Origin: Fragilaria crotonensis
Taxonomy: Eukaryota; Bacillariophyta; Fragilariophyceae; Fragilariales; Fragilariaceae
Length of the DNA: 64,000 bases
NCBI GenBank assembly: GCA_022925895.1
Contig: JAKSYS010000105.1
Coordinates: 55,808-119,807 of the forward strand
Reading direction: 5' to 3'
The position numbers were made by a program, and so were the translations under genes. The notes beneath the pieces were generated by a model, which saw only the letters and a list, made by a program, of their open reading frames with translations, searched no databases and had not been told where the DNA came from. Position 1 is the stretch's first letter, and the number at the start of each line of letters is the position of its first letter. Below are positions 6,361-62,888 of the stretch, piece by piece.

Positions 6361-8436
6361 ATGATGGCAACTGAAACACAGGCAGCAAACGACGACGACG
6401 ACCATGCAGATGGCTGGTTTTTTCCCATGGATAAGCCAAAGTACCACACATACATTGCCTCTCTTATGAGATTCGCTCATGGGCGCCAGACTCCATATCC
6501 GAATACAAAGATTTTCACTCGTGAAGAAATGATTGCAGTGACGCCCATGCAAGTGCGAAATTGGATGTGCATGAAGGCTTTTGGAAAAACGGCTATTGTA
6601 TCAACCGACCGACCACTCCGTTGTAGAGGAAATACGCTGGCTCAAATGAAGAAGTGCTCGTCTCATTACTTCCCAAACAAGCTGTCCCAGTGGATGGATG
6701 GGAAAGGGAACCCGACCAAATCACAGTGCGTCAATGAGGTCATTTCCCTTGTGTATAAATTCGAGGTCCGACAAGAGGGTTCTGACAGCCAATGCAAGCG
6801 ACCGCTCCGACAGGATGAGTTTTATATGACGTTGGCTTTGTTGAAAGCATCTCGAAAGAATGATTTTGCGCACAAATGGCTTTATCCGATGATTTCCCTT
6901 TGGCAGTATCATTTAATTGGGCGAGTCGACGACTGCTGTAATTTTAAGGTTCGTGACCCGAGAGGACACCCAAATTTTGATTTCGCAATTAAGACAAAAG
7001 TCCGATGGAGTAAAAATGTGCATGAAGAGCGAAAATGCCCTGACCAAATCCTACTCGCGTCGATGGATACGAGAACATGCGTTGTTTATAACCTCGCTAT
7101 ATACTTGGAGGAATTCTTGAGTCAACACCCAAGGGCCATATTGTTATTCACTGAACAAGCCCCGGGACCAAATGCGGTTAAAAATCTCATTTGTAGATAC
7201 CGAAGTCGGATCCAAAAGGAAGTCTGGTTGCATGAAGACTTCAAACGATTGGCTGATGAAGATGACGAGGATGGTGTCGGTACCCACTCGTATCGCAAGT
7301 TCCCATCAACGTATGCACGGTCAAATGGGTGCTCACCAGATGAAATTGAGATTCGAGGGCGGTGGAAACAACAAGGACAACGAGTGGTCTTTCGGTACAT
7401 CGATGTCAAGCAGTTGTTTATCGATGCAAAGGTTGCAGCAGCTCTCTGTATTGGAGGTCCCATCAAGTATGAATTGTCGGTAGATGTGGAGGTAAGAACG
7501 GCAGTAACAAATGACTGGCTATTCACTAACGTGGTTCCTTGTATTCGTGCAAGGTTTTCTGGCGATTCAAGATTGTGTCGTGTGCTTGGTCTCTCGCTTC
7601 TTTTTGGCTGCTTAGATGAAGAGCTTTCGATGGAACTTCCTCCCTTTGTTGTCGCGAGAGTTCAGAATGCGTGGGAGGCTCTGCGCTTGCAAGCAGCAGT
7701 AGCCAACAACAATCCAGTGCACCGAGTGCCTCTACATGTGTATCGTATTAATGATACGCTATGTATTGATCCTGTGGTGGTGCAGCGTGAAGAAGGTGGT
7801 GCGCCTGGAGTCCCTGCTACTAATGCTGGTGGTCACGGCAACCAGCAGCAGCGTGACAACGATTCGTATCAAGCCCTTTTGATACAACTGCAGCATCAAA
7901 GACAGCAGATGACGGGCATGGAACAGCGCATTGATGGTTCTCTCAATTCATTTCGGACCTGGACAAGGAGTCAGTTTACGATCATCAACAACAATATACG
8001 TCGATTTGGAGGCTCAATACAAGGAGGGTTGGCGAGGCAAGATCCAGCACAAGCACTGGAAAGGCGAGCTGCTGCAAACCAGCAGATGGATGCCGTGGAA
8101 AACGAAATTGGTGGTGGCTACTACGTTTCCCTATCGCCAGCGCCGAAGACTTTGTACGAGCTGCACACCGAGTGGCAGTTCGGCATAGGGGGTAGAAAAC
8201 CTGCACGGTTGTGGAATTTGCGAGAAAGAGCCAAGCGAGCTGGTGGTGTAAAGCAAAAGTTTTACAGGAGAAGCGTTGTTTGGAAGTTGATTAATGGGCT
8301 CGTAAACAGGGGGTGCCATGTTCAGGAGGCCATCCACATGATCAAGGAAGCATACGGGCACAACTGTACCGTTTCGCAATACATCGACAAGATCATTAAA
8401 GATCGTCAAAATGGGGGGCATCCAAATCTTCGATAG
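6361..8436 (+). CDS. Crypton-type tyrosine recombinase with GCR1_C-like C-terminus
   Basis: An intact 691-residue frame from ATG 6361. The core matches a tyrosine recombinase. The box I Arg is R188 in LIGRVDD, a Lys-containing beta-hairpin region lies near 211-225, and the H-x-x-R pair is H309/R312 in THSYRKF. A Trp (W335 in GRW) stands at the second His/Trp position, and the nucleophile is Y346 in FRYID. A SAM-like DNA-binding region precedes it (about 60-180). A Gln-rich linker (about 480-570) leads to a C-terminal domain (about 590-690: YELHTEWQFGIGGRKPARLW ... RRSVVWKLI) that resembles the GCR1_C DNA-binding domain found in some fungal-type Cryptons. Such enzymes catalyse cut-and-paste of circular DNA intermediates. 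All five catalytic positions are present and the frame is unbroken, so this copy may be active or domesticated. No terminal repeats were found, as is usual for Cryptons. Confidence 0.83.
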   Translation: MMATETQAANDDDDHADGWFFPMDKPKYHTYIASLMRFAHGRQTPYPNTKIFTREEMIAVTPMQVRNWMCMKAFGKTAIVSTDRPLRCRGNTLAQMKKCSSHYFPNKLSQWMDGKGNPTKSQCVNEVISLVYKFEVRQEGSDSQCKRPLRQDEFYMTLALLKASRKNDFAHKWLYPMISLWQYHLIGRVDDCCNFKVRDPRGHPNFDFAIKTKVRWSKNVHEERKCPDQILLASMDTRTCVVYNLAIYLEEFLSQHPRAILLFTEQAPGPNAVKNLICRYRSRIQKEVWLHEDFKRLADEDDEDGVGTHSYRKFPSTYARSNGCSPDEIEIRGRWKQQGQRVVFRYIDVKQLFIDAKVAAALCIGGPIKYELSVDVEVRTAVTNDWLFTNVVPCIRARFSGDSRLCRVLGLSLLFGCLDEELSMELPPFVVARVQNAWEALRLQAAVANNNPVHRVPLHVYRINDTLCIDPVVVQREEGGAPGVPATNAGGHGNQQQRDNDSYQALLIQLQHQRQQMTGMEQRIDGSLNSFRTWTRSQFTIINNNIRRFGGSIQGGLARQDPAQALERRAAANQQMDAVENEIGGGYYVSLSPAPKTLYELHTEWQFGIGGRKPARLWNLRERAKRAGGVKQKFYRRSVVWKLINGLVNRGCHVQEAIHMIKEAYGHNCTVSQYIDKIIKDRQNGGHPNLR

Positions 8437-9581: not shown

Positions 9582-10760
9582 TACAACAACTGCTTGTTTT
9601 CGTCGAGTTTCGATCTTTGTAATGCGAAGCACTGTTGTTGCCTAAGATCATTCGCATTTCGGAATCCGTGCGAATGCGGGCGAATGCGTGCCACATTCGA
9701 ATGATTTAGGTAATTATGTGGATCCATGCGAATGGAGTCAGAATTGTTAATTTATTTGACATCCACGACAGGAGCAGGAGGCATGTGATTGTGGCCAGTG
9801 GCCAGACAAGAGGACGGGAGTCTTGGGTCTAGCGTCCGGCGGCATGAGGTCATGAAGATGTTGAATGTTAAATGTTTAACACACATATATTCTACGTGGC
9901 AACGGATAGTGGAGGATCTTTCTTCGGCCACGAATTTGTCCTTTTTTATAGAGATGAGATACATACAGTTATACAGTACATAAACGCAAGCATACTCCAA
10001 GTACTCCGAGTACGCCAGTAGTGGCTGGCGCCAAATCTTGAAATGGTCAAATCAGGGAGACGTATGTCATACTACGTACATTCGTACTACGCACTGTAGT
10101 AACAGGGACTATGAGACCATGAGACGTCTGAAGAAAAACTGAAAAGCCCTCCCTTCCTTTTGAAACACCGCACACTACTAGTAGAGCTACGATACGACTC
10201 GAGTACCTGGTACAGTAGCATTGTTATACACATTCGATCATTCGATAATACTCAACGAGCCCAGTGGGTACTGTTACAAGTTACAAGTACCGGTAGGGTA
10301 GAGTTGTCCGTCGGTCGGCGTCAAATCATAGCAAGTCAATTCAGTAAAATGGATGTTAATGATCACAAGAATGAAACAGATTAATTTCAGAGATTCAGAG
10401 ACCGAATGGTCTAAATGGATACCAGTGGAGGCTGCTTTGCTTTGCAGGAGGATGCAATGCACACAACTGTCAGAATCCCAAATACAAAGGCTCCACATCG
10501 TTGGAAAGCGAAGACAGAACAATTGAAATGATCTAGATTGGGGCTGGAGCATTACTAAGCACAGAACTTTAATCAGGCATACCAATGCATGTTGAGTGAC
10601 TTTTTACAGGCATGATGGAAATCAGATCTACGACCAAAAGAAGAGAGAAAAAACTTAAAATTAAGCTGATCTGAGCTTTCTTCTACTCCCACGTGGGTGA
10701 GTTATCTAAGCCCCTATTAGTTGTAACATTCCGTGCGTTGCAATGAAATGCAATCAAGGT
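9582..10760. other. Intergenic, nothing recognised
   Basis: Nearly 1.2 kb with short overlapping frames only. It includes GTAC-rich stretches (9995-10090, 10200-10300) and the 3' flank of the VHL-PUB gene. A short palindromic cluster (GCATTCGAATG-like words, about 9645-9735) is present. No gene or RNA is supported. Confidence 0.45.
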
Positions 10761-12146
10761 TTAACGCCGCCCATAGTTCGCTCTGCCCTGGCCATCAGCT
10801 CCCACCGGTTGCCTCGTCAAAGGCGAGTCTTGGATACGTTTCCACTTTTCCAAATAAAACAATATCGTTGAAAGCTCCTGAACACGTGCTCGTGGCAACG
10901 ATTCCATGCTGCCAAGTTCGGCATAGCCATTTGTCTCTACGAACCCTGCAGCAAAAAAGAGACCCCGAGCTGGAGTATTCCAAATATGTTGTGAGAATCG
11001 CTTGTGTGCAATGCGAATTTGACGGAACTTCGTATCGGACGGGTGCAAGACAATGTTAGTCAAGTATTTTGTGAGAGAATCAATGTAGGGATAATCACGT
11101 CGCGACATTTCTTGAAACGACCAAGCAGCGGCGTCCTGCGTTGTTTCGATAATGGTGGGAAAGGCAGGATCTGCTATCCAGCAAATGAGACCATCATCGT
11201 CGATCTGTGGTCGTTGTCCTAAGGACAGAATTGCGAATCGGTGAATGCCGATTTCAGGCTCATCCGAATCCACCGTTAGCACCTGATGAGTCGTAGGGAT
11301 AATCTTATAAGGGATGTAGTGGCATAACATCGCACCAGACTCCTTGTCGCGAAATGTCCACGGATGTCCAATCCAGGTGGTTTGGTGAAAGACGTTTCCC
11401 TGTGTGACGTCTCCCTTGTGAACCTCTCTGCCACTGAAATCGATCCAGTAAACTGAAATAGTCTGACGATAACTGTTTGTAACTTGAAGTTTCAACGATA
11501 CTTGACCTCGTTCAGATTTGGGCATAAACGGTGGATACACTTCGACGCCATCCGTGCGGCCGACAGTATAGATGCGATAGAGACTGGCCTCAGTCTCGTA
11601 CCATTTTCGAAAATTTTCCAAACCTGGGTGGTTGCTATCCTTGGCTTGCATGGGAGGTGGCGCGTTCACATCTCGTGCATGTGATGGATCTGATTGTGCT
11701 GGTTGGGTTAGCGATGAAACTGGTTCATGTGGTGCCGCGTCATCTTCTAGTTGGGGAGGTGTATTGCATGACTTGTCGACTTGTGGTCGTTCATCGTCGT
11801 CAGAATCCTCCTCAATGTCATCGTAGATCAGTGTCGCGTTATTTGTGTCAGTGTCATCACCATCATCTTCAATATCATCATAGATTAAATTCGTGTCCTC
11901 GTCTTCAAATCCATCCTGCAACTGCTGGGATGCCGTCAATTCTAGTTCGTCGACAACAGGGTTCCAATCCCCTTCTACTCGAGTCCCTGAACTAGCTGGA
12001 GGTTTGCTTGAATATTCCCAATAGTGATAGAGACCTGCAATGATAACAGTGATCACAACACGCCCCAGCCATTGAGAGACGAAACTAGGCTCTTCTTGCA
12101 CTGGGTCTGCCGGTAGCTCCATTGCATCGACATTGAGCGAATCCAT
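10761..12146 (-). CDS. Single-pass membrane protein with VHL-beta and PUB domains
   Basis: The frame is open from 12185, but its first codon there is GTG; the first ATG is at 12146 (MDSLNVDAMELP), giving 461 residues. A hydrophobic helix (GRVVITVIIAGLYHYW, about 28-43) suggests a membrane anchor with a short N-terminal side. An acidic linker carries a duplicated LIYDDIE block (about 87 and 106). At about 215-283 is a von Hippel-Lindau beta-like domain: YWIDFSG, then GHPWTFRD. By motif alignment the pocket residues equivalent to human VHL Trp88, His115 and Trp117 are kept (W234, H261, W263), while Tyr98, His110 and Ser111 are replaced. At about 347-437 is a PUB domain (LTKYLTNIVLHPSDTKFRQI ... 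LFFAAGFVE), the module that binds the p97/VCP tail. The combination suggests a membrane adaptor linked to p97, for example in ER or organelle quality control; that role is inference. Confidence 0.8.
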   Translation of the reverse strand: MDSLNVDAMELPADPVQEEPSFVSQWLGRVVITVIIAGLYHYWEYSSKPPASSGTRVEGDWNPVVDELELTASQQLQDGFEDEDTNLIYDDIEDDGDDTDTNNATLIYDDIEEDSDDDERPQVDKSCNTPPQLEDDAAPHEPVSSLTQPAQSDPSHARDVNAPPPMQAKDSNHPGLENFRKWYETEASLYRIYTVGRTDGVEVYPPFMPKSERGQVSLKLQVTNSYRQTISVYWIDFSGREVHKGDVTQGNVFHQTTWIGHPWTFRDKESGAMLCHYIPYKIIPTTHQVLTVDSDEPEIGIHRFAILSLGQRPQIDDDGLICWIADPAFPTIIETTQDAAAWSFQEMSRRDYPYIDSLTKYLTNIVLHPSDTKFRQIRIAHKRFSQHIWNTPARGLFFAAGFVETNGYAELGSMESLPRARVQELSTILFYLEKWKRIQDSPLTRQPVGADGQGRANYGRR

Positions 12147-12759
12147 GGCTGTTTTGGATGTTTGACTATGCCCTCCGGTATCCACTGCATGCCCACAAGG
12201 TGTTGGGGTTTTTAGACACGAATCTCCAAGGAATACAAAATGATACTACAAATATATAGTCCTGTCTGACGTATGACTCTTCACTCGTGACTCAGGACAT
12301 GTAGAATTCTACAATACTGCAACATACGTCTATTACCAGGTACCGGTACAGTGCAACCTGGAGGCCTCTGCGTCATCAGGGTCATCAGATGTATGTCATA
12401 CAGAAATGAATATTGAATACCTGCACTCGGCGTACGAACTACGTACATTGTACGACGGACGCAGTAGAATTCTGTACCAGTACAGTAGTACTCTACTTCA
12501 GAATTCAAAAGCAACAGACCACAGCGTACATTCGATAATCTCATAGAACTGGAGTACAATACTCCATTTGCTGCTGGTAGTAGAACAGCGTCAATATGAC
12601 GGTGTACGTGGTAACAGGTACAGTACAGGTACTGGTACTCTAGTACTCCAAGAACAAAACACGCACCCATCCACATACCACATCACATCTCACAACAAAG
12701 AAGAGATAGAAATTGTTGCTCGGAATCTGTGAAGAACATCTGTGCTCATTCTCCCCATA
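12147..12759. promoter_or_regulatory. Shared upstream region of divergent VHL-PUB and DUF1365 genes
   Basis: These 613 bp separate two divergent start codons and so must hold both promoters. The DNA contains many GTACC/AGTACT palindromes (about 12335-12360, 12470-12500, 12610-12650). A purine-rich stretch AACAAAGAAGAGATAGAAA lies just upstream of the DUF1365 start. No TATA box is clear. Confidence 0.4.
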
Positions 12760-13893
12760 ATGTCGTTCCTCACAATCCTCTTGTTTACGATCGCCGCTTC
12801 TCTGCTGCTTCTAGTAGGAGGCTATGTTGTGTTGGTGATTGTCACGGCCTTTCTCGCTGTCGCCACAACGTGGCGATCCAAGTATCGGACTTCCAAATCG
12901 CGATTGCTCATCGGTCGGGTGTCGCACAGTCGGAAGATACCTGCTATACATGGCTTTTCGTACCCCATCTTTATGGCATTGGTGGATTTAGAACAAAATT
13001 TCGAAGAATCATTATATCCACTCTCCCTTGTTGCGCAACTTTGTGATGAAGATCATTACAAGAACAACGAAGGAGGAGGAGAAGGAAGTACAACAAGCTT
13101 GACACTGGCGGAACGAACGTTGCGACTTGTGGCGGAAAAGACCAACGACAAGTTTCAACCGACACTGGAGACTCATAGTGTCAAGCTGCTGACGCATTTA
13201 CGATATTATGGATATTGTTTCAACCCCGTCTCCTTTTACTACATCTTGAGGAGGGATAGTATGGATCACAAGATTGATACTATTGTTGCCGAAGTCAGCA
13301 ATACGCCTTGGAATGAAATGCAGTGCTACGTTTTACATCCGGATTCGATCGATATTATGAAAGTGGTCCAGCCGAGTCAATTGCAAGTATCAGGGAAGAA
13401 TCAAATACCAGGAATCAATTACGTGTTTCGGAAAGCGTTTCACGTTAGTCCTTTTATGGACATGGACCAAGTGTACGACTGGACGTTTTGGGAATTGCCT
13501 TTGGATATGGTTTCGTTGCAAGAACAGCATCCAATACAGCAACCATCATCATCAGCGTCGTCAATGTCGTCATCGTCACTGCGAATTAGCACCTCTGTAT
13601 TTCAAAACGAAGAACTGTACTTCAATGCATATCTTCAATTGAAGAATGGTGGGTGGCACCCGTACAACATTGCATTTCAACTTGTCAAGTTTCCACTATT
13701 TTGTGTCATTTTGCAAATTTGGATTCACCTGCAAGCATTTGCCATTTTCTTCAAGGGTGTCAAGTACGTTCCACATCCAGAGGGGAGCGAAACTGCAGCA
13801 TCCGCATTGATTGGACGAGCCATGGCACCCATTTTTGCACTGAAGGACTGGTGGGATGCCAAGAAAAGCACAAACAAGACCAAGAACCACTAG
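12760..13893 (+). CDS. DUF1365 family membrane-anchored protein
   Basis: The start is taken as the ATG at 12760 (MSFLTILLFTIAAS); an upstream in-frame GTG at 12742 is not a likely eukaryotic start. The product is 377 residues. Residues 2-36 are strongly hydrophobic, a signal anchor or one to two membrane passes. The DUF1365 signature follows: GRVSHSRKIPAIHGFSYP (about 53-69), YYGYCFNPVSFYY (149-161), EVSNTPW (178-184) and KAFHVSPFMDMDQVYDW (225-241). A Ser-rich insertion lies near 255-285, and the C-terminal third has a second hydrophobic segment (about 305-335). The biochemical role of DUF1365 is not established; in bacteria it often sits beside oxidoreductase and cyclopropane-fatty-acid-synthase-like genes, so a lipid-linked function is possible. 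The next gene converges on it with a 146-bp gap. Confidence 0.85.
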   Translation: MSFLTILLFTIAASLLLLVGGYVVLVIVTAFLAVATTWRSKYRTSKSRLLIGRVSHSRKIPAIHGFSYPIFMALVDLEQNFEESLYPLSLVAQLCDEDHYKNNEGGGEGSTTSLTLAERTLRLVAEKTNDKFQPTLETHSVKLLTHLRYYGYCFNPVSFYYILRRDSMDHKIDTIVAEVSNTPWNEMQCYVLHPDSIDIMKVVQPSQLQVSGKNQIPGINYVFRKAFHVSPFMDMDQVYDWTFWELPLDMVSLQEQHPIQQPSSSASSMSSSSLRISTSVFQNEELYFNAYLQLKNGGWHPYNIAFQLVKFPLFCVILQIWIHLQAFAIFFKGVKYVPHPEGSETAASALIGRAMAPIFALKDWWDAKKSTNKTKNH

Positions 13894-14039: not shown

Positions 14040-15371
14040 CTAATGTGCCGCAATATCATGTTCTTCGGAAGCATGATGATGTCCAGCTTGCTGGAGCAGC
14101 AAATCAAAGTCAATGTACGGTTCATAATGATCGACCGTCGCGGCAACACGAGAATAATCTCCAGCATGCAGTTTTGGCGTAAAGGAATGAATTTTTTCCA
14201 TCACCAATGATGTTGGTTCTGGCACGACCAAGATCGGTGGATCGTACTCCAAAGCCAACATGTCAACCAAGTGCGGATCCAATTCATGACCTTCGCACAC
14301 AATGAGAGCTGCCTCAAGGGTCTCGCCACGGTTTTTACGACGTTGGTGTTCACCGAGAAAGCCCAAGAGAATGTCGTTGCGGGAGGCATGGCATACATAG
14401 AGCGTGCGCGAAGGGCGGGAGCGAAGATGCTCCAAAAAGACAGTGAGAGATGTCGCCACCAGGTTCAGATCGTTGACGGTGTAGTGGCGCAGAGCGTGCT
14501 CCTGGCCACTAAGGAAAGAACCTCCGAGTTGTCGTTCGAGGTCGACAAGGGCGGGATTTCCCAGGAAGGGTCGATCGGGGATGCACCCCAAGAGGGGGAT
14601 GCCCCAAAAGTCATTCAGCGCCTTCTCTAAATAGTATCGAGTTTGCTCGTACTTGTCCACTTGCACTTTGTTGATAACGACTCCAGCTATTGGTACATTG
14701 AAATGTTCACAAAGGACTCGATTAAGTTCCAATTCATCAAACGCCTTTCCTAAGCCACCATTGGCAACGAGAACCATTTTCGCACCTATCCAAGATGCTA
14801 CCTCGGCATTGCTTGCGCCAATGATGCTTCCAACGGCACAATGACCAGTTCCTTCTGCCAAGACGAGGGATGATCGGCTGCTCACTTCATTGTAGTGGTC
14901 GATGATCAACTCTTTCTGTGAGGAATTGGAGATTTTGCCATCCACGTAGTCTTTGGTGTATCCCTTTGGAATTAGGACTGGTGACATGTATCTGTAGGAC
15001 AAATGATCCAACTTGAAATGCTCCTTGACAAGGACAACGTCCTTATCGACTCGCATTTCGAAGCCGTCGTCGTCGATGACTTTAAGAGACTGCTGGCCAA
15101 CGGGCTTGATAAATCCAACTTGGTCGACTCGTTTCTGAAGACCACTCATGAGGGCGAGGCTAACAGTTGTCTTACCGACGTGTTGACGAGTGGCAGCAAC
15201 GTATATAGGAGATGGCCCTCCTGACGAATCATTGTCGCCTGCAGACATTGAGTGGAAGCGAGACGTGGCATGGTATTTGCGGGGTCGTATTCCTGCGGTT
15301 ACAACAGATCGATGACACGGATTGCGAATGGAAACGGGAACTTTGACAAGAGACGAGTGCAATGTGGTCAT
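14040..15371 (-). CDS. BioD-like P-loop ATPase with DRTGG domain
   Basis: This is a 443-residue frame from ATG 15371. The first 40 residues are rich in Arg, Ser and Thr and poor in acids, like an organelle transit peptide. An AAA_26/dethiobiotin-synthetase-like domain follows, with a P-loop in AATRQHVGKTTVS (about 59-71), FIKPVG (88-93), LVLAEGTGH (170-178) and VVINKV (232-237). The C-terminal part (about 325-410: LYVCHASRNDILLGFL ... AALIVCEGHELDPHLVDMLA) fits the DRTGG domain. This two-domain order equals the regulatory N-terminal half of bacterial long phosphotransacetylases, but no acetyltransferase domain follows. Bacterial examples sense metabolites or nucleotides. The His-rich C-terminus (GHHHASEEHDIAAH) is unusual. 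Whether it has enzymatic activity cannot be said. Confidence 0.8.
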   Translation of the reverse strand: MTTLHSSLVKVPVSIRNPCHRSVVTAGIRPRKYHATSRFHSMSAGDNDSSGGPSPIYVAATRQHVGKTTVSLALMSGLQKRVDQVGFIKPVGQQSLKVIDDDGFEMRVDKDVVLVKEHFKLDHLSYRYMSPVLIPKGYTKDYVDGKISNSSQKELIIDHYNEVSSRSSLVLAEGTGHCAVGSIIGASNAEVASWIGAKMVLVANGGLGKAFDELELNRVLCEHFNVPIAGVVINKVQVDKYEQTRYYLEKALNDFWGIPLLGCIPDRPFLGNPALVDLERQLGGSFLSGQEHALRHYTVNDLNLVATSLTVFLEHLRSRPSRTLYVCHASRNDILLGFLGEHQRRKNRGETLEAALIVCEGHELDPHLVDMLALEYDPPILVVPEPTSLVMEKIHSFTPKLHAGDYSRVAATVDHYEPYIDFDLLLQQAGHHHASEEHDIAAH

Positions 15372-16237: not shown

Positions 16238-19200
16238 CTACGTTGCGGTCCCCTCGCGCTTCATTTGTTGGTATAACTCTTTGTAATCAACTTGATTGCG
16301 TCGGCGTTTCCGTGATCGGTCGTCGTCGCCATCCTCCTCCGCGGCGCGCACTAATTGCTGACGTCTTGCGGACTCCATCGCCTTCATGTGACGATCATGC
16401 TTCTGTTGCCGCTTTCGTTCTCGCTCGTCCAATATGTGTGCTTCAAAATCAGATTCCCACGACAAGTCACTAGCGTCAAACAATTCGCGACTTCGGCCAC
16501 CATCCACAAGACCGCGAACGTGAGACGCGACCGATCTCGCGAAGGGGCTCACTATACCGCCATGGACCTTGTAACCACCTTCCAACACGGAAACTATTCG
16601 ACCGTTGCAACATGTATTCGCAACCTTTACCAACTGCTCCGTCAACCACTCGTAGTCGTCTTCGACCATACCCACATAACCGAAATTCATCGTGTCCTTA
16701 CGATGCGCGTCGAAACCGGCAGAGATAAAGATTATATCAGGATCAAACTCCCGCAATCGCGGCAGAATTGTCTTACGGTAGGTATCTCGGACTTCAAGTC
16801 GTTGCATGCCTGGGACCGCATCGCGTCCGGGCAAGCCGAGTCCGCAGTTGATTATTTTGCAACAATTAAGCCGACTTTCTTCCCCATTCGCGACCATGTC
16901 TGCGATAACATGAAATCGTTGAGATTGGGCCTTTCTACCACAGACGGATTAGCAATTGCATCAGCGACTTGACTCTTTCCAGACGCAGGGTAGAACCAAC
17001 CAGCCTGCTGCGGTGATAACTCTGTCGAATGCGAGATCAGTGTTAGATGACGCCAAGGTTTAGTGGGAAACAAGGAAGAGGGGATTTAACACTAACCTGC
17101 AAAATCAGAACCTCTAGGACCATAGCCATGAGTGCTAGCGAAAAACACATCATTAATGTCAGTCTCGTCCAGCCAAGGGCGATATCGATTTGAGGTGAGC
17201 TCGCCGACTGCGAAGGGTGCTCGGACGATGGCCTTTTCAACAGTAGGGACCAATTGCCGAATAATCTCTTCCGTACCGTTTCCGTGGTGGACGTCAAAAT
17301 CAATGATTGCAATCTTTTTTATTCCTGCGTGTCTGTAAATACTACGAGCATACGCAGCGCCGATGGCCACGTTGTTGAGGAGGCAAAATCCATGAGAGCC
17401 GCCATCTGGATCATTAGGACATCGAACAACGCCTCTTGGTCCAGCATGATGACCAGGAGGACGAACAGCGCAGAATGCGTTGCGATGATCGCCGTTGACT
17501 ACCTTGTCCACGGCCTCGCAAACACTTCCTGCGGCTCGCAAAGCAGCTTCAAAACTCCATCGTGAGACAGCCGTGTCTGGATCCAGATGAGCAATGGCAC
17601 CAGGATGGTCCGGAATAGCAGAGCACAAATGAGATATCTTCTCAACATATTCATATTCGTGACATTTGAGTACGTCGGAAATTGCTGCGCGCCTGGCATG
17701 GTTTTGCCAGACCATCTGACTGAATTCACCCCCACGCAATATGCCGTCTTCCTCGTTAACGAGAACATGCAGCCGACGAATGTTTTCTGGGGGCGGTTCC
17801 ATTCCTGAATCGCGCCGAATTGGTGGGCATGATCGATGCAGCATGCAAAGCTCATGCGAAATCAAGACAGTTGTGCCATCCGGATCCACCACAAGATCAC
17901 GGGACGGAGTAAGGCTCGCTATCAGGGAGGGATTACCCCCAAAAGCAGCGAACAAATCGTTGGGCACTGGCACTCCACGTTTTAGCGCCAACTGTATTGG
18001 AGTGAATCCTCGCTTATCTTGAATATTTGGGTCTGCATTAGCGTTTAGCAGGAGCCGCACCACCGGCCAGTTGCCTCGAGCGCACGCAACATGAAGTGGG
18101 GTGTGTCCTTGCATATTCTGGGCATCGACCTCCACACCGGTCTGAGAAAGAAGCATCTGCGTCACTGGGGCGATGCTGTCTGCGGAGGGTCCCAACAGTC
18201 CTTGAGAGACGGCGTGGGCCAGAGGTTTGGATGACATGGCTCCTCCTGTGCAAACAGGCAACGGGTGATCAGACTCAGAGATCGAACCATCAGAATGATG
18301 TGATGAAGTTCGTGGTATAGTGACCGATTGTCTCGTACCACCCGGACGAGCTTGAACATCGAATCTCGCCGCAGCATGAAGAGGACGGCCTCCAGAACGG
18401 TCGGAACGAGCATTCAGCGTCGACATGCCTTCAGAGTCAGACAGGATGAAACTCACAACCCGAGGCAAATTCATTTCGCACGCAAGATAGAGAGGACTGT
18501 GAAAAGAGTCGTCCTTGAGGCTCAAATCTGCACCATGACCAACCAGCAAAGCAACACAGTCATGAGCGAAGTCGGCGTGTTTTGCGATCGCCCCCATGCT
18601 GATGGCCGTATGAACGGGATAGCTCCCATCGCATTTTCGAGAACTTGATGCACCGGCTTCTAGGAGAAGTTTCACGTGCTCGAGTTTGCAAGCGTGCACA
18701 GCTACATGGAGAGGCGTGTTTTCATCTTCGTCGCGTTCGTTGAGGTCGTATGGTGAATAGTAGTTGATATTTTTCTTTTTCTTCTTCTTGAGCTTTTTTG
18801 CATGGTCCCCTTTCACGTCGCAAGGTGACGGAACGCCGTTGACTGGAGCCAGGACAACATCGTTCGCTGCTTCCTCCCCTTTCACCTCTGCCGTCCCTGA
18901 CGCGGCTTCTTGCGAAGACCCACCAGCCTGTTCGTGACTTTCCTGGCCTTCTCGCTGGTCGTTAGACGCTGATGGAACTTCCCCACTTGATTGCCTAGAG
19001 GAGGCTTTCTCACCTTCTAAACGCTGCCCCGTTCCATTGTCACCACTTGTCGACTCCTTGCTTGACATTGCTCCCCCTTCGAGCGGACCACTTTCAGTCC
19101 CCTCGTCCCCAGCAGCAAGAGCCGGATTCCCGTCGTCGACTGCCTCACTCTTACGCGCTTCGAGATTCTCGTCTATATCCATAGATTCAGCAGTGCCAGA

Positions 19201-19761
19201 CCCAAGCGACACGGACAAAGATTGGTGAATCTTGTCAGGGTGTTGGGACTCGATTAGCGACACAAGGATAGGCCGGGGAGAATGGCCAATCGCAGCTGCA
19301 TGCGCTGCTGCCAACGAATCATTATCGTCCGAACTCGAGTCATCGTCGTCGTCATCTCCTTCGTCCTCATCGCCGGATGCATCTTGAGGGACAAAAATGA
19401 GTCGCTGTTCAGGTTTCAAAACGAATCATGTGAGAAGATTATTTTAGACGAGAAAGTCAATCCAAGATACTCTCTATGTGAGCAAAGAAAAAAAATATCT
19501 GATGCGTGCATGATGAGCGGGAAACACAAAAAAAATCTTTTGACACATTAACGCCCGATGAATCGTACCTCCACCTGGAAGTGGTGTATCTTTCGACAAT
19601 CTCGCCCATTGTCACCAACTCTCACCTCAACTCACCTTTAAACTCTCAGCATCCTCATTCTCGCAACAATCATGGACTGGGTATCGTTTGGAACCGACGT
19701 GAGATGATTCGAAATTGAAATCATCGTCATCGTCGGAGGACGAGCCATCATCAACAGACAT
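16238..19761 (-). CDS. Ankyrin-repeat class II-type histone deacetylase, four exons
   Basis: Proposed exons on the minus strand are 19761-19699, 19404-17097, 17021-16974 and 16899-16238. The introns are 294, 75 and 74 nt and all GT-AG; the phases agree and give about 1,026 residues. The first exon (MSVDDGSSSDDDDDFNFESS) is less certain, because the open frame of exon 2 has no early ATG. The N-terminal 220 residues are acidic, Ser-rich and disordered, ending in a Lys run (near 228, probable nuclear signal). Ankyrin repeats span about 250-495 (DENTPLHVAVHACKLEHVKLLL, GHTPLHVACARGNWPVVRLLL). The deacetylase domain fills the rest: RPPGHHAG (about 674), the zinc motif DFDVHHGNGT (about 726), STHGYG, GWFYPASG and SAGFDAHRKD (about 869). 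It should remove acetyl groups from histone or other lysines, with the ankyrins choosing partners. A basic coiled tail ends the protein. Confidence 0.85.
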
Positions 19762-35083: not shown

Positions 35084-36509
35084 TCCATCTTTCGTTAACT
35101 CAGCAGACGACTGTTTGACTTTTCGGAGCCAGCGCCTACGCGTTGCCGGTGGACCTTCCAATAGCTTGGAAAAGAGGACGTTGGCAGTAGTGTTGGTCGC
35201 CTGTGCGAAGGAGATGCGGACGTGAGTGGTAGTACTCGATCTCAATTGCTTCAGCCGTGGAGGATAAATGGGTGCTTGACGTGGAGTCATGGAGGCAACC
35301 GTTCCGCGCAATCCAAAGTCGACGAGTATGCTGACATAGAGCGGAGATGATTCGTTGCATACGGGTGTGTCCAGCACGTGGATCGCAAGTGGGGGTATGC
35401 ATGTCGAGAATGGCCAATTCCGACCAGTCCCGAGCGAGGAAACCTTTAACAGCCGAGTTCCATCCAATTTGTTGTTGCGACGATAGAGCGGAAGTGATCC
35501 CGGGATGAAAATGGGAGGGGTACTGAGTGATAACCGGTGCAAACTCGGAATCTGAAGTAAGCACATGGCAGATGCCCTCAACGATCAGATACCGAATAGG
35601 ATGAGGATCTGTTGTTAGGATATCCGAGCGAAAGGTGGAAAGACTTAAAGCAGATGCGGGATTAGCCGTACATCTAAGAAAGTGATGAGGCGTTTCGTCG
35701 GCCGCTTTGCAGCATGGGCAAAGCTTTAAAGTAGTGTCCTTGATGGATGCCTCGCGAAAACGTTGTATGCCGAGAGGAAGTACCTCATGAATGAACTTGA
35801 AGTGTTGTGTTCGAAGCGTTGGGCGGAGTTTGCGAAAATGGTGTCCAAAAGTGTGAAAATCGACAAGGTCCCAAGCCGCATCAGTCCATTGTTCTGTCTT
35901 TTGTATCTCGGTGCGCTGATGGTATCCGTTTATATGGAACCGGACACAATCATCATAATGTCCTGTGACCGGTGAGCCATTAATGAACAACGTACTCCCA
36001 TTGTCCTGCCGATGGTCCACCAATGATCTGGATCGAAGGCGTCCATGTTCACGATATCGGGTAGCGAGAAAGTCCGCATCAATATTCAACCTAGCGGGAA
36101 GTGGAAGTCGATCGTAGGATATCGAAACATCCTGATGGGCTTTAACCCATATTGGTCGGAAGGAGCGTTTGAGTGCGCGAAGTGACGACGATATAATGGA
36201 TATAAGATCGGCATCCGAGGGCATGCGAATGAAACGGCGACGACCGCAAAATTGATGGAAACGACTGATAGCTGAACGACTGTCGGTGTACCAATTGAAG
36301 GAGCACCGATGTTTCAATCCCCAGAATGCCGACAAGGATGACAGCAACAGCAGGGCGGATGCACATCCACCGAGTTCACTACGAGTGGATGAATGAGTGT
36401 CAGTGGAACCATCCACCGGGCCGGAACATGTGAACAAAACCTGTTTACCGGTGCTAAGAATCCAGCCATGCGTAGCTGAGTTTTTACTTAGTCCCCCCAT
36501 CGGAGGCAA
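35039..36509 (-). pseudogene. LINE RNase H and zinc-motif C-terminus
   Basis: The frame 36509-35136 contains an RNase H domain (VDGSTDTHSSTRSELGG, WYTDSRSAI, KAHQD ... NIDAD, supplying the acidic residues) and a CPCCKAADETPHHFLRC zinc motif, as in the C-terminus of many LINEs. A shift near 35300 leads to the frame ending at 35039 (SLITSFFSPV). The final codons and following DNA lie in a 45-nt tandem duplication. Confidence 0.75.
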
Positions 36510-36808
36510 GATGCAGCCGAGACTTGGATCGAAACGCGCGCCACACTTGAAGGTCAGAAGCTTTCTGTTGAAGACCGTCTAAAAGACGACGCTCTGTTCG
36601 TGATGGAAGGGATGAAATGTAAGAAGAAAAATCCTCAGGAAAAGACTGCGGCGACGCTGTGGTGGCTGAAGGAGTAGGACATTTTTCCTGGGGGACTTTC
36701 CAATAGGGCGGATAGCGAAGGTAAGACGAACGAAGGAACCGTTTCCATAGTCGCTGTTGGGCTTTTGATGGTTGGGTCTGTCGAGGCCACTTGGTCGAAG
36801 TCTCAAAA

Positions 36809-39221
36809 TCATACGGGGCGACTGCCGTCGAGGTAGCACAGAAGAATACGATTCGGGTGATCGGGATCGCACATGTCTGCTAGAGTAGCGACTTGGAGCC
36901 AAAGACGGACGAGATTTAAGTCCTGTTGTTGCGCAGGTGTGTACCTCTTCAAATGTTCCGACTGCATGATGTATTCATCCTTCGGGCCATGGAGTGGATC
37001 TAGATGAAGGTCCGAAATCTCGAGATGCATGTTGTTGTTTCCAAGAAACTGACGCACCGACAGTATCCATGACGGTGTTAAATAAGAGACATGTCGGTTG
37101 GGTTGCTCCAAGAGATAGAAATCCACTCCTGCCTCACGCTGCGAGTAATCTAAATTCAATCGAATTAGGTTGCCAGCTTCCGAATCACTATACAGGGCGT
37201 TGCGCAGAAACTTAAGAGTCTCGATACCCATTTCTGTCCGCAGATCATACAAGCCCAGTCCACCGAGTTCAAGAGGGCCATATCGTAAGGCAGTTGGAAT
37301 GGTGCTGCGAATATGCAGGCGTTGAAGGATGACTCGACTTATTTGTGACTGGACCTTGGATAGTTCCTCTTCGTTGGTGGCGAGAGCTGCCAAGCTATAT
37401 CTCATCGATGGAATATAAATTGAACGATGGAAAATAGCCACATCCGTTTCAGTCAACCGTGGGGATCGTAGACGTCGAGCGAAAGTGTCTGCTTTTTCTT
37501 TCAGAGCAGCAAGGTGATCAGTAAAATCCCCCCATAGGATTTATAAGAACTCCCAACATTCGGATTGATTCGGTCGGTGATGTTTGCTTGATAGCGTGGC
37601 GAGTTAATGATTTGCCTTGAGTCAAGGAGATAGACGGATCAGTCGGTAGCATCCGTCGCAAAACTGGACGCCCATGCTGCCATTCCCATTGAAGAACAAA
37701 ATAAGAACATTTCTTCAAATTGAGTTTTCCTCCCGACATGTAAAGAAGTTTTTTCCCAAGACTGTGCGACACTCTCAAGGCGAGCAATAAGATCGCTATA
37801 GGAGTCTCCATCGGTTGACGACGAGGTAAAACCAACTGACGTGTCGTCCACGAACGCGTCCGATGACCGTGAATGTGATCTGCCACCAGCGACGGGGTCA
37901 AAATGCATGCGATGGGGAACCATTCGGTCGAAGGCATGTAGAAGGAGAACAACGAGAGATAGCCAGACTGCCGGTGATGCACCGCTGCCTTGACCAGTTC
38001 CAAATAAGGGAGCAAAAGGAGTTCCTGAGTAATTGGATTCCGAGACGCCATATGCTGTCTTTACCGTATACCGCATAAATTGCAGAGCCTCTGCATGGAG
38101 GCGAACCGCGTTCTTGGGCATGCCACATCTGCGCGCAGCCAACATACCAAGCGCGACGATGATTCGGTCATAGCACGCTGAAGCATCATTGTCAAAACGA
38201 GCCATATCGTGACGTAGTACTCGACATAAATCTGTTGTGAGCTGCGTGAGCATGATGGGATCGATCGCAGCCCGACGTGGGATGGAACCGTGTTGAGAGT
38301 CGTGCAGAAGGTCCAATTTACATGCGTGACGGACCAACCGATGGCCCCACTGAAGTTTCAAAAAGAAGTTGTAATCCGCCTCGAACAGGTGGACAATTCT
38401 TAATCGGTTAATGCAGGGTTTTCCAACGTCTTTTCAATCATGACGTTTGTAGCTCGACACCATCGTGGAATTGCAATCCCGCGAGCAACGACTATATTAA
38501 TGAAATAGACAAAACACTTCAGTAATATCGGGTCCTGTATCAAAGCTCGATAGTGTCCAAGATGACGACCGCTTGGTGAAGTTGATGTCTGCTCTTTCCA
38601 TCCGGTAAAACCTCGAATAACCTCATCCGATGATATCTCAGTAGGAATATCACCATGCGTACGTACGTGCGTTGGAATGACAAAAGAGGCCAGAAATTCC
38701 CGAAGATAGTTGTCAGAACCATGCCACTGCTCGGGTACGATGCCTGATAGGAGGTCTTCGGACTGTGGGGATAAGCTCGTGAAGGTCAGTGCATCATGGA
38801 TTATACCATGACCGCAGGGAGACTCGGACGCGGCACGAAAAGACTCTTTGTTATAATCAAGGATGTGTTTTTCAAGTTCCTCACGAGTAAAGACTGTTTC
38901 CCATGGAATATCCGTATGTTCTTGGGTAATTTGGTAAGCTGAATATCCAGATTCATGTGCCATTGAAGACGGTGGAACAAGAACTTTGGAAAGGCTAGAC
39001 CGCTCCGATGGTTTTGTTATCCGTCGGATGTGTCCAAACGTTGTTCTAGTCGTTTCTCCCGATATTGTATTCATCACTATCTTTGCCTTGCGTCGTGAGG
39101 ATGCTTGCGTTGCTGGATTTGTATCCGCGACGTATGTATCCAGAAGATCTTGGGGTAGAAATCTTTTGAAGTCGACGAAACCGATTATTAGCCTGTGTGA
39201 GTTCATGGCGAATCTGGTCAA
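36809..39221 (-). pseudogene. LINE reverse transcriptase region, four frames
   Basis: Frames at 39221-38400, 38361-37639, 38051-37518 and 37456-36809 together make an RT. The fingers region has GFTGWKEQTSTSPSGRHLGH. Motif A is MARFDNDASACYDRII. GTGQGSGASPAVW is motif B. FVDDTSVGF holds the catalytic Asp pair. LNLKKCSYFVLQW and YGPLELGGLGLYDL mark the palm/thumb and connector. All catalytic Asp residues are kept although the frame is broken, which fits recent damage or sequencing indels. Confidence 0.8.
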
Positions 39222-40705
39222 CAGATAGCCGAGTCCCTAGGGAAGGTAAAAGAAACTTAGAATCGCTTTGCTGAACCTGCGTTTGCCAACGAAGAAATGT
39301 AGGCTGAAAATCTTTTCCATGAAGAAGTTCGCGTAAACGGAGCATCCAATATCTGCGCAGAATTGCACTGTTGCGAAGCGCCGGAGACCATTGACACTTT
39401 TGAGGCGGTCTCTTCAGTAGCCGTTCACTTGACTCCATAGAGCGACCTTGGTCATTGTCCCAACTAATAAGCGCTGCTCGTAGATCCTCGCGGGACATCT
39501 GTCGATGGCGCTGATACAAGTCCTCAATGCGTTCAACCATGCGATGTTTGCCGTAGTAAGCTAACATAGCAAGATTATATTTCTCCACTAACTCTGGATT
39601 TCCTGTATGGAGGGAGCGTGCCGCGGAAGGTGTAGCCTTCGACCATGGAATTTGTTCTATAAATTCCGGGGAGATATCGACATATAATCCTCTATGATCA
39701 GACTGGGGACCTTCGGTATAGGCAAGGATACCGCCTCTAATAACCAACTGCAGAGCCTCGTCGCACCCAAAGATGAAATCAATACGTCGATTAGATGACC
39801 CGATGTATGTCGAAGGCGGAGGTGCCAGGGAATGGCAGTCATGTAAACCACATGAAGCAACAAAAGTTGCTAAATCCTTATCGTCGATAGTGGAGTTTGC
39901 GTCTAACATAATGATGACACAGTTTCCCTGACTCCTGCAGTGCCAAGACCAATTGCTTGAGGTCGCATAAAAACTGTCGACGGGGATTAACAGACTGGCC
40001 GAACCGTTCTCTAAAGAATTCATACTCCCGAAGAAACGAACTCCCAAGAGGTGCGCTTTGTGGGGATCCTTTACACACGCGGTAGGCCGTAATGATGGAT
40101 AATTTCTTTCCTTGATTGCCCTCTATTGTGACGCCGCTCCATCGTCCTAAGCCCGTAGGATCGACAATACTTGGACCCGCAACACGAGAAGAGATGTCGT
40201 CGAAAACTGCCGTAAGATTTCCGCCTGATTGAAAGCTTTCATGCTGTAAGCATGGGTCAATCGCGGAAGACACCGACCCAAAGATGATTTTTGACTGACG
40301 ATGAAAACGTTGTGTTGCTATTCTGAAGTCTGATGACAAATGATGATGAGACCAGCATGTATTCGTCTCAGCGAGTCCAATAATGTTGACTGACAACCCT
40401 TGAAGACATTGGTGATAGTACCGATAATCTTCAAGAGTATTGGAGTGAGTAAGACCTTTGACGTTTTGGAAGAAAATTCGAATCGAGCCCTGCACTTTGG
40501 ATTTTATTGGGTCGCCAAACGATAACGAAGGTACGGGGTCAATCGGAGATGAACGAGGCTTTCGACCGGGACGGGAAGACGGTATAGATAAAAGACAGGA
40601 AGCGGGAAGTCGGGAAGCAGAAGATTGACTTGAGACAAGTTGAGTCACTAGTGGGCGAATTGAGTCCATTTTGACAATCTCATGTTGGAAACAATTTTTT
40701 TGCAA
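39046..40705 (-). pseudogene. LINE endonuclease region, two frames
   Basis: The first frame (40705-39878) carries IRIFFQNVKGL and INIIGLAETNTCW-like blocks; the Asn and Glu are the metal-binding residues of APE endonucleases. The second frame (40047-39046) carries MLDANSTIDD and the conserved SDHRGLYVDI near its middle. The two overlap by about 170 bp with a frame change near 39950. The likely start is MDSIRPLV (about 40669), because the longer frame begins in the adjoining dispersed repeat. The domain would nick target DNA for target-primed reverse transcription. Confidence 0.75.
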
Positions 40706-42704: not shown

Positions 42705-45700
42705 ATGAACTGGCTGTCTCTCCTCGCAGTCCCGTGGCTGCACCTCACTGCGGTCACTGCCGACTTCCATCACCACCTTCGTCGTGACAACGACTTTGAG
42801 CACCGTTTGTTGCAGCAGACATGTCCTGCGACGACGACGTGCAATCCTATTGTTTTCTCGTGTGATGATCCTGGATACGTATCTGGTTCTGGTCCGTGTT
42901 ATCAAGTAGGCCAGCCGTCGTGCCTGACGACGGGGGCAGGTGTGCGGTTCAGGAATCTTGTTTTTAATGGTGCGCAAGAAATATTCATGGGAGCTGGTGA
43001 TCTTGGATTACCTACATTACGGTCGGCTAGTCATGTTGCTTGGTCAAATGGGTGCTACCCATTCAGTTGGACATTCACACCACCACCCGCGGACACTCTC
43101 GTTCTCGCTGGCATTGGTACTCCTGATCCTCTGACTATCCCCAGTGTTGCTGCTGTAGTCAATGCCAAGAGTGCTGCTCCTTCGGCTGGATGGAATGGCC
43201 TTTCCATTGCCATGACAAACCGTCCTCCTGCTGGCTATGATGGAAACGTGGATTTGTTGCAGGTTACACTGTCTAAAGCCGATGGTACTGATGAGAAATT
43301 ACTGGGTGATTTCTGTGGGGTCCCTCAAATCTATCTAACTTGGACCATCAAGAACTTTGACTTCTCGGCTGGATACAAGATTTCTGGATTGATTGCGCGG
43401 AGAGGAAATTGGCCTAATAGCCTTGGTCAAGAATCAAGCAAGGTGGATCTGTCTACCATGACGTATTGTTCCGCTTCTCCGACCGCTTCTCCGACCGATT
43501 CTCCAACCGCTTCTCCCACCGATTCTCCAACCGCTTCTCCCACCGATTCTCCAACCGCTTCTCCCACCGATTCTCCAACCGATTCTCCGACCGATTCTCC
43601 AACCGCTTCTCCGACCGGCTCTCCAACCGCTTCTCCGACCGGCTCTCCAACCGCTTCTCCGACGGACTCTCCGACCAATTCACCAACCGCTTCTCCGACC
43701 AATTCTCCAACCGACTCTCCGACCGATTCTCCGACCGGCTCTCCAACCGATTCTCCAACCGCTTCTCCGACCGATTCTCCAACCGCTTCTCCCACCGCTT
43801 CTCCGACCGCTTCTCCGACCGAGTCTCCGACCAATTCTCCGACGGACTCTCCGACCAATTCACCAACCGCTTCTCCGACCGATTCTCCAACCGATTCTCC
43901 GACCAATTCTCCCACCGCTTCTCCGACCAATTCTCCAACTGCTTCTCCGACCGACTCTCCGACCATTCTCCGACCGATTCTCCAACTGCTTCTCCGACCG
44001 ACTCTCCGACCAATTCCCCGACCAAATCTCCGACCAATTCTCCCACCGCTTCTCCGACCAATTCTCCCACCGCTTCTCCGACCAATTCTCCCACCGCTTC
44101 TCCGACCAATTCTCCAACCGCTTCTCCCACCGCGACATGTCCTGCGACGACGACGTGCAATCCTATTGTTTTCTCGTGTGATGATCCTGGATACGTATCT
44201 GGTTCTGGTCCGTGTTATCAAGTAGGCCAGCCGTCGTGCCTGACGACGGGGGCAGGTGTGCGGTTCAGGAATCTTGTTTTTAATGGTGCGCAAGAAATAT
44301 TCATGGGAGCTGGTGATCTTGGATTACCTACATTACGGTCGGCTAGTCATGTTGCTTGGTCAAATGGGTGCTACCCATTCAGTTGGACATTCACACCACC
44401 ACCCGCGGACACTCGTTCTCGCTGGCATTGGTACTCCTAATCCACTGACTATCCCCAGTGTTGCTGCTGTAGTCAATGCCAAGAGTGCTGCTCCTTCGGC
44501 TGGATGGAATGGCCTTTCCATTGCCATGACAAACCGTCCTCCTGCTGGCTACGATGGAAACGTGGATTTGTTGCAGGTTACACTGTCTAAAGCCGATGGT
44601 ACTGATGAGAAATTACTGGGTGATTTCTGTGGGGTCCCTCAAATCTATCTAACTTGGACCATCAAGAACTTTGACTTCTCGGCTGGATACAAGATTTCTG
44701 GATTGATTGCGCGGAGAGGAAATTGGCCTAATAGCCTTGGTCAAGAATCAAGCAAGGTGGATCTGTCTACCATGACGTATTGTTCCGCTTCTCCGACCGA
44801 TTCTCCAACCGCTTCTCCGACCGCTTCTCCGACCGCTTCTCCGACCGATTCTCCGACCGATTCTCCAACCGCTTCTCCCACCGATTCTCCAACCGCTTCT
44901 CCCACTGATTCTCCGACCGATTCTCCAACCGATTCTCCCACCGATTCTCCGACCGATTCTCCGACCGATTCTCCGACCAATTCTCCAACCGCTTCTCCGA
45001 CCGATTCTCCGACCAATTCTCCAACCGCTTCTCCGACCGATTCTCCAACCGATTCTCCGACCGATTCTCCAACCGCTTCTCCGACCGATTCTCCAACCGC
45101 TTCTCCGACCGATTCTCCAACCGCTTCTCCGACCGATTCTCCAACCGATTCTCCGACCAATTCTCCCACCGCTTCTCCGACCAATTCTCCAACTGCTTCT
45201 CCGACCGACTCTCCGACCAATTCTCCGACCGATTCTCCAACTGCTTCTCCGACCGACTCTCCGACCAATTCCCCGACCAAATCTCCGACCAATTCTCCCA
45301 CCGCTTCTCCGACCAATTCTCCCACCGCTTCTCCGACCAATTCTCCCACCGCTTCTCCGACCAATTCTCCCACCGCTTCTCCGACCAATTCTCCAACCGC
45401 TTCTCCCACCGCGACATGTCCTGCGACGACGACGTGCAATCCTATTGTTTTCTCGTGTGATGATCCTGGATACGTATCTGGTTCTGGTCCGTGTTATCAA
45501 GTAGGCCAGCCGTCGTGCCTGACGACGGGGCAGGTGTGCGGTTCAGGAATCTTGTTTTTAATGGTGCGCAAGAAATATTCATGGGAGCTGGTGATCTTGG
45601 ATTACCTACATTACGGTCGGCTAGTCATGTTGCTTGGTCAAATGGGTGCTACCCATTCAGTTGGACATTCACACCACCACCCGCGGACACTCTCGTTCTC

Positions 45701-47934: not shown

Positions 47935-48356
47935 ACACGACACGAGCATCATGTCTCCCGAATCTATCTAGACTGAAATAAGTCTGCCTGGCTCTCCTTC
48001 AGTGACCAAACAAAAAGATTCTTTAGCACATAGTGTGAGAAGATAACAAATAAATGTAGTATGTGTACAAGATAAATCGCAACGGTACGATACTCATGCT
48101 CTGAAGATGGGACCACTCACCTCTACAAGCTACTTGTACTTTCTACTAGCTAGGGTATCATAGTAGACAATAGACTACCGGTAGCACAGGGATCTACTGT
48201 ACTGTCATACATGGCACTGGAAACTGGTCACGGATGGTCACACGGATCAATGAAAGGCTTGTGGTCAGTGGTCATACATTTTATATCATACATGACAAGA
48301 ATTCTTGATTGAGCATCGGAATGGACTCGATTCTTTATCCATTGTGTTCCCCGTAG
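47935..48356. other. Intergenic, nothing recognised
   Basis: About 420 bp of AT-rich DNA with a few GTAC words. If the CBS fragment at 48357 is a real exon, the pyrimidine-rich stretch ending in CCCCGTAG at 48356 would be its 3' splice site. Confidence 0.4.
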
Positions 48357-52700: not shown

Positions 52701-53456
52701 GCGTACTTGAACTGTGAAGCGTAGTCGAAGCAATGAAGATAGACCGACAAATCATCACCGGCCTGACATGGCAGAAAAATCATGTGAATGAGCCCATCCT
52801 TATCTTTCTGGACGTAACCATGGTTCTGTTTTCCACCCGCCTGGAAGAGATTCAACTCAACCGGAGGAGCGTCTTGGTCTTGAAATGCCCATCCATTGAA
52901 GGTTGGGAAAAGGGCATTGAGATCGACATCCTGCGCATCGTATAGAATGTATCCATTCGGCGCAACCGTTGGTTTGCGACGAGGAAACAAGGACTCATCC
53001 ACACCGACAGGATCGGTATCACCAGTATTGCCATTTGTTTCTTCGCAAGTAATTTTGTACTCCAAATCGTCTCCATAGTCATAATTAAAAATCATGGTGG
53101 TCGTCTTCGGCACCAAAGCCAAATCAGAAAGCATTGTCCTGTTGGCACGACGTTCCGATTGACAAGGAAAATCTCCAGATTCGTAGACTCTCCTTCCCGG
53201 CAGGAGACGAATGTTCCACATGTGAGCATCGGCTGATTCGTTTCTTCCAATCGTCGTTTCTCGACAGATAACATCAACTAAATCGTAAAGCGTCTGCGTG
53301 GAGAGAACTTGCACTTGAACTGGAGAATGAGATACGCTAAAGGTCAAAATGCGCGCGGCGCCTTTGCCTTTTAGCAGCTGGAGCTGAAGATGAGTCATTC
53401 ACATTGGCATTGGTATCAACTGCTTCGAGTCTGCGATGGAATTCGGGTTCGTTCAT
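52701..53456 (-). pseudogene. pRiA4b ORF-3-like protein, interrupted by LINE insertion
   Basis: The likely start is ATG 53456 (MNEPEFHRRLEAVD), with a basic KRQRRR stretch near residue 27. A one-base shift near 53370 moves into the frame that begins at 53398. That frame carries a pRiA4b ORF-3-type domain: VLSTQTLYDLVDVICR, DAHMWNIRLLPG, then IFNYDYGDDLEYKITCEE. The Tyr-Asp-Tyr-Gly-Asp block is the family hallmark. The host-like sequence continues to about residue 230 of that frame (LHCFDYAS). From there the open frame goes without interruption into LINE thumb sequence (ATHGYPLATS), giving a chimeric 333-residue ORF ending at 52397. The domain occurs in IS1096 passenger proteins and widely in eukaryotic algae; its function is unknown. 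The junction position (52.69-52.71 kb) is an estimate. Confidence 0.7.
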
Positions 53457-59553: not shown

Positions 59554-59560
59554 CACCTGA

Positions 59561-61392: not shown

Positions 61393-61537
61393 TTGACAAG
61401 TATTTGAATGCAGAGCTAATATTCGATGTCGGTACCGGCAGCGAACGCAAAGGCCGTGTGGTCAAACGTGCAAAGGGTACTCTGGCGAACCGATTGGTCG
61501 CACATTCCAACCCCTGTTCGATACCCGAGAATACGTC

Positions 61538-62868: not shown

Positions 62869-62888
62869 CTTCTGAACTTAATGACGAG

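Follow-up and report, generated by a model that had tools for sequence, protein, structure and literature searches.

In animals, VHL is known to serve a cullin ubiquitin ligase as substrate receptor, and a survey of 566 eukaryote genomes places it in metazoans and in the two non-metazoan phyla that it covers, choanoflagellates and ascomycetes, with the terms "stramenopil" and "diatom" occurring 0 times in the available text of that survey (PMC9618697). The hydroxyproline pocket of the human protein is formed by Trp88, Tyr98, His110, Ser111, His115 and Trp117, where Ser111 and His115 hold the hydroxyl, Tyr98 holds the carbonyl and His110 gives its backbone carbonyl (PMC9528729). VHL-beta has also been described in a bacterial protein for which a signal peptide is predicted (PMC9002001). 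The PUB domains of UBXD1 and PNGase have the pocket motifs YxxN(x)9Y and K/RxxN in common (PMC6995525), and the C-terminal motif of Cdc48 is reportedly well conserved in eukaryotes as a rule (PMC5070193). In Leishmania, PUB proteins co-purify with p97, one of which reportedly lacks a human homolog (PMC7403338), and these set a precedent for PUB cofactors peculiar to protists. The gene considered here lies in a 64,000-nucleotide stretch of contig JAKSYS010000105.1 (the window, meaning the whole stretch analyzed), and its 461 amino acid (aa) product almost certainly carries a VHL beta domain and a PUB domain in a single reading frame.

The coding sequence (10761..12146, minus strand) is apparently a single exon, with its ATG at 12146 and its stop at 10761-10763. 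The frame stays open back to 12245 without an earlier ATG, and the probability of a 494-codon open frame arising by chance, computed at local composition, is ~2e-12. Pfam at E<=10 lists three models in the protein. PF09409 (PUB) matches residues 355-407 (10926..11084, minus strand) at 41.3 bits against a cut-off of 34.3 (1.5e-10), and PF01847 (VHL beta) matches residues 222-272 (11331..11483, minus strand), the core holding W234, H261 and W263, at 25.3 bits against a cut-off of 21 (1.6e-5, profile positions 14-64 of 82). The third, SoxE_N, was judged a chance match (E 0.29, 11.4 bits against a cut-off of 27). There is no VHL alpha-domain, UBX, UBA or PNGase catalytic model among the three, and the VHL beta domain is followed by the PUB domain; NCBIfam (E<=1) and PHROGs (E<=0.1) gave no match to the protein. 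An earlier note on this DNA had proposed that the two domains share one frame and that a cullin-box alpha domain is lacking, and both proposals were supported by the Pfam search.

By single sequence, phmmer with the VHL stretch of the window protein found only one, unrelated match in the PDB (E 0.72), and the assignment was therefore tested further. In a tblastn search of plasmids (E<=10), the stretch matched 3 of 72,556 records, from Calothrix (1e-5), Jannaschia (5e-4) and Nostoc (0.04), and each of these proteins exceeds the Pfam VHL cut-off alone; the profile had matches in 0 of 14 control genomes, which speaks for its specificity. The three plasmid-borne proteins are small and annotated as hypothetical. 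Comparing the Calothrix protein with the PDB (E<=10) returned 24 sequences, all 24 VHL (best 0.0077), and a profile of the window stretch together with the three bacterial ones again returned only VHL at E<=1 (24 of 24, E 1.7e-4 to 1.5e-3). When a profile made from the three bacterial sequences only was run on the 876 stop-to-stop frames of at least 40 residues in the window, the 461-aa frame ranked first with 40.5 bits (E 1e-11), and the runner-up reached 5.7 bits. Residues 211-290 score 45.1 with the same profile, where the maximum among 1000 shuffles, 946 of them scored, is 9.1. A chance match to VHL is thus rejected by the shuffles and the bacteria-only profile.

Structural prediction points in the same direction. 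The single-sequence model of residues 195-335 has a predicted local distance difference test score (pLDDT) of 43.0, rising to 57-62 in model residues 31-80, and a predicted template modelling score (pTM) of 0.42. Foldseek with this model gave 1103 matches at E<=10, and the best 50 of the 1103 are all VHL-containing entries, 49 by title (VHL, VCB or VBC) and one, 6r7f, by the Calothrix search of the PDB; the matched chain is inferred. The best match has E 1.3e-3 and a TM score of 0.42, and 0 lie at E<=0.001 among the matches listed. As models of low confidence can yield meaningless Foldseek matches, this result is counted as support only.

The pocket was compared over 54 gap-free columns in the window protein, human VHL and the Calothrix, Nostoc and Jannaschia proteins. 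Identities with the window protein over these 54 residues number 17 for Calothrix, 11 for Nostoc, 18 for Jannaschia and 11 for human VHL, with three bacterial sequences being too few for descent to be read from them. W88, H115 and W117 of human VHL are kept as W234, H261 and W263, and Y98, H110 and S111 are replaced by Lys, Thr and Thr; the kept and the replaced positions are those that the earlier note had named. To judge from the residues, Tyr98 to Lys is the sole clear loss, the change of Ser111 to Thr being mild because a hydroxyl is retained, and that of His110 because its role lies in the backbone. In the bacterial proteins, position 88 is Trp and position 115 is His in all three, as in the window, and position 117 is Trp in two of the three with Phe in Jannaschia. 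Thr occupies position 111 in all four, the window protein included, and position 98, Lys in the window, is Tyr in Calothrix and Nostoc and Ser in Jannaschia. The two cyanobacterial proteins, Calothrix and Nostoc, accordingly retain W88, Y98, H115 and W117 and have Thr for Ser111.

Since bacteria also keep W88, H115 and, in part, W117, these residues cannot alone argue for hydroxyproline, and hydroxyproline specificity read from the three kept residues was rejected as evidence. The original pocket argument thus needs correcting in both directions: the kept residues, being bacterial as well, are less telling than it held, and the replaced ones, Tyr98 apart, less damaging. In comparing the protein to pVHL, the likeness is confined to the beta-domain core, and the window protein differs in having Lys for Tyr98, no detected elongin C-binding alpha domain, and an added PUB domain and N-terminal hydrophobic segment. 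It resembles the bacterial proteins in Thr at 111 and in the Pro after His115; unlike it, they have VHL as the sole family above cut-off and are 113, 120 and 210 aa long.

The PUB stretch, searched with phmmer against the PDB (E<=1), found 9 sequences: three of UBX domain-containing protein 6, which we take to be UBXD1 (1.5e-5 to 1.4e-4), four of PNGase (0.0011 to 0.003) and two of mS70 (0.23 and 0.66). UBXD1 is therefore the closest PUB of known structure by sequence, and PNGase shares a similar PSDxK[YF]R stretch; the window protein differs from these two in the UBX and PNGase catalytic domains, neither of which was found in it. Residues 361-384 (10995..11066, minus strand), corresponding to the pocket for PUB-interacting motifs (PIM), align gap-free to both and read Y361-L-T-N364-(9)-F374, then R378-I-A-H381. 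Both YxxN residues, Tyr and Asn, are kept, as is the equivalent of PNGase Arg55, with Phe at the position of UBXD1 Tyr194 and His at that of UBXD1 Asn201 and PNGase Asn58. In PNGase, Arg55 shuts the pocket and may keep out motifs that are extended at the C-terminus (PMC4017264). As its equivalent is kept, the window pocket would suit a free tail such as that of p97.

A hydrophobic segment at residues 21-45 (12012..12086, minus strand) is a putative membrane anchor. The single model of the full-length protein has a pLDDT of 35.5, a very low confidence too poor for use; it draws helices at 22-46, 64-78, 174-185, 354 to 439 and 452-460 and strands within 201-307, a layout that fits the domain order and in which the PUB helices extend to ~439. 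The best 19-residue window, residues 21-39, has a Kyte-Doolittle value of 1.61, which is borderline for a membrane-spanning helix. Anchoring by this helix is consequently plausible but borderline, and the earlier description of a membrane protein stands as to the hydrophobic stretch itself and less firmly as to its insertion. Net charge is -6 over residues 1-28, -1 over 15-29 and +1 over 43-57. By the positive-inside rule, the -6 against the +1 leans toward cytosolic C-terminal domains.

The segment is followed by an acidic linker at residues 58-125 (11772..11975, minus strand), in which 28 acidic and 2 basic residues give a net charge of -26, opposite to the +5 of the PUB half. The linker contains two exact copies of LIYDDIE, at residues 87-93 (11868..11888, minus strand) and 106-112 (11811..11831, minus strand), so that this part of the earlier description holds in full. 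The copies have 5 base differences over 4 codons, every one synonymous, which suggests that the block is kept at the protein level, with the caveat that it was selected for being identical in protein. None of the p97-binding SHP, VIM and VBM motifs was found in the 461-aa protein with rough patterns, and an FFAT motif, judged by eye only, was likewise set aside.

Taken together, these features are best read as a membrane-tethered Cdc48 cofactor with the VHL-beta domain as its client binder, a reading held tentatively and at a little under even confidence. The protein would be nuclear-encoded, with a single N-terminal helix probably fixing it to a membrane and the remainder in the cytosol, and the acidic, probably disordered linker would let the VHL-beta and PUB domains stand off from that membrane. 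PUB would bind the p97/Cdc48 C-terminal tail, though with low affinity or by an altered mode, and VHL-beta would take hold of a client or another partner, which may be a peptide with a hydroxylated proline. In this manner Cdc48 could reach a membrane-bound client with no need for a cullin-elongin adaptor.

A number of observations weigh against such a cofactor. The hydrophobic segment is weak by hydropathy and has Arg29 inside it; both structure models, full length (pLDDT 35.5) and VHL region (43.0), are of low confidence; and the gene model is known from a single genomic copy, without transcript evidence. A confirmed relative was found neither in viral_contigs, searched with the whole protein, each domain, a domain pattern and the VHL alignment, nor in genome_contigs. 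In the PUB domain, 2 of the 5 tail-pocket positions are changed (Tyr to Phe and Asn to His). The dissociation constant (KD) of UBXD1 for a p97 peptide rises from 13.8 uM to 141 with Y194F and to 64.1 with N201A (PMC6995525), a loss of ~10-fold and ~5-fold at the two positions that are changed here; the authors themselves warn that Y194 mutants lose helix content, and their mutant list has N201A and not Asn to His itself (PMC6995525). The Asn that is His here has been called the cornerstone round which the bound peptide wraps (PMC4017264), and the PUB domain of SPATA2 has lost tail binding and serves another partner (PMC6995525). From these residues, tail binding by the window PUB is expected to be weaker or altered. 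Passing of a client to p97, as first proposed, is thus possible, though weakened by Phe and His at two binding positions.

The SPATA2 precedent leads to the alternative that survives best, in which the PUB domain does not bind p97 but serves another partner of the ubiquitin system, and VHL-beta acts as a beta sandwich for protein binding in general, without any part in hydroxyproline recognition. This would account both for Phe and His in the PUB pocket, where they stand at two of the key positions, and for Lys in place of Tyr98 in the VHL-beta pocket. W88, H115 and T111 are common to the three bacterial proteins and may serve the fold or another ligand, and two of the three appear by eye to have signal-peptide-like N-termini. 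Against this, the pocket Tyr, Asn and Arg are kept, among them the first Tyr, whose loss marks SPATA2 (PMC6995525), and this alternative is judged rather unlikely, while still deserving serious weight.

Should the host be a diatom or other ochrophyte, the protein could instead be part of SELMA, the import machinery of the red-derived complex plastid that resembles endoplasmic reticulum-associated degradation, and act with symbiont Cdc48. SELMA has a PUB-domain member in diatom plastid import, which works with a Cdc48 at a membrane site. Two symbiont Cdc48 variants are usual in plastid-bearing heterokonts, and in most species that have two, one keeps the C-terminal motif (PMC5070193). On charge and hydropathy, the sole criteria applied, the N-terminal signal sequence expected of such a protein is not evident here: residues 1-20 are acidic (residues 1-28 net -6) and the hydrophobic stretch begins at residue 21. 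Membership in SELMA is considered improbable.

A more specific version of the cofactor reading would make the protein a cullin-free reader of oxygen or hydroxylation, in which VHL-beta reads hydroxyproline on a client at the membrane and PUB passes the client to Cdc48. If true, a lineage that lacks the HIF pathway would have its own extraction route dependent on prolyl hydroxylation. This version is considered decidedly improbable.

The duplicated LIYDDIE block invites two further explanations, and its likeness to Atg8-binding cores and to PUB-binding motifs fails part of the stricter definition in each case. As a selective-autophagy receptor, the protein would bind Atg8 through the two YDDI cores of the linker and select cargo with both domains; YDDI matches the core [WFY]xx[ILV] in both copies, each in acidic surroundings, and the block is duplicated with synonymous differences only. 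By the patterns that were used, the core is present at 10 sites in the 461-aa protein and, of the two YDDI copies, the second alone fits the stricter Atg8 pattern. A receptor of this kind is very improbable. Hardly any credence can be given to LIYDDIE as internal PUB-interacting motifs occupying the protein's own PUB domain. The hydrophobic residue followed by Tyr in an acidic stretch is like DDLYG of p97 and EEDMYR of OTULIN, but Leu replaces the Asp two residues before Tyr (D54 of OTULIN, which kinks the peptide), and internal motifs may be kept out by an Arg where PNGase has Arg55 (PMC4017264).

Returning to the proposed membrane-tethered cofactor, further searches covered phages, plasmids and literature. 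The VHL stretch matched 4 phage records, at E 4, and the whole protein 0, and the single plasmid match to PUB (E 9) was judged chance. No description of a VHL and PUB architecture was found in the open-licence PubMed Central literature, and "PUG domain" is absent among the VHL and protist matches listed from it. PF01847 occurs once in a Toxoplasma paper (PMC11321763) and was not found in its main text. Judged from the open-licence literature and not from eukaryotic protein databases, VHL-beta with PUB is, as far as searched, a new combination of known domains and not a new kind of system.

The gene is eukaryotic and probably of algal origin. Window content looks eukaryotic: Pfam matches include a kinesin and a frame for an ankyrin-histone deacetylase, retroelement-like frames are seen by eye, and there are no tRNA or Rfam matches in it. 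The nearest long frame upstream of the gene is a plus-strand DUF1365 protein starting near 12742-12760, for which no relative was found in genome_contigs. GTAC tetramers crowd the gene flanks (9700-10760 and 12147-12760), where 1674 bases contain 25 of them; the 1386 bases of the coding sequence contain only 1, and the whole window has 280 against 256 expected. An intact 691-aa frame at 6361-8436 (plus strand) has a C-terminal GCR1_C match of 23.7 bits (cut-off 23) and, by eye, a tyrosine-recombinase-like middle part; we presume that it may be a Crypton-type transposon. On the minus strand, 14040-15371 encodes a protein with AAA_26 and DRTGG domains, an arrangement found in the N-terminal part of some bacterial phosphotransacetylases, and by eye a possible N-terminal targeting extension. 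Two minus-strand frames at 16238-19419 together resemble an ankyrin-repeat histone deacetylase, its deacetylase domain split, perhaps by an intron.

Farther along, the region 42705-47976 appears to contain gene pieces in repeated form, with long repeats of the SPTDSPTAS type, the frame at 42705-44222 matching the PT repeat family at 95.3 bits, and the GC skew is -0.58 at 46001-48000. Frames at 58018-63662 (plus strand) and at 35136-40705 and 50801-53398 (minus strand) resemble, by eye, a Copia-type element and long interspersed nuclear element (LINE)-type elements; Pfam on three of these frames gave one integrase match below cut-off and none for the other two.

In contrast to the VHL of animals, the beta domain is here joined directly to a module of the type that docks on p97/Cdc48. 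Comparison with the three bacterial proteins suggests that the "hydroxyproline pocket" is for the most part not peculiar to the HIF pathway. If the joining of VHL-beta and PUB is conserved and working, it would represent a second use of the VHL-beta fold in eukaryotes.
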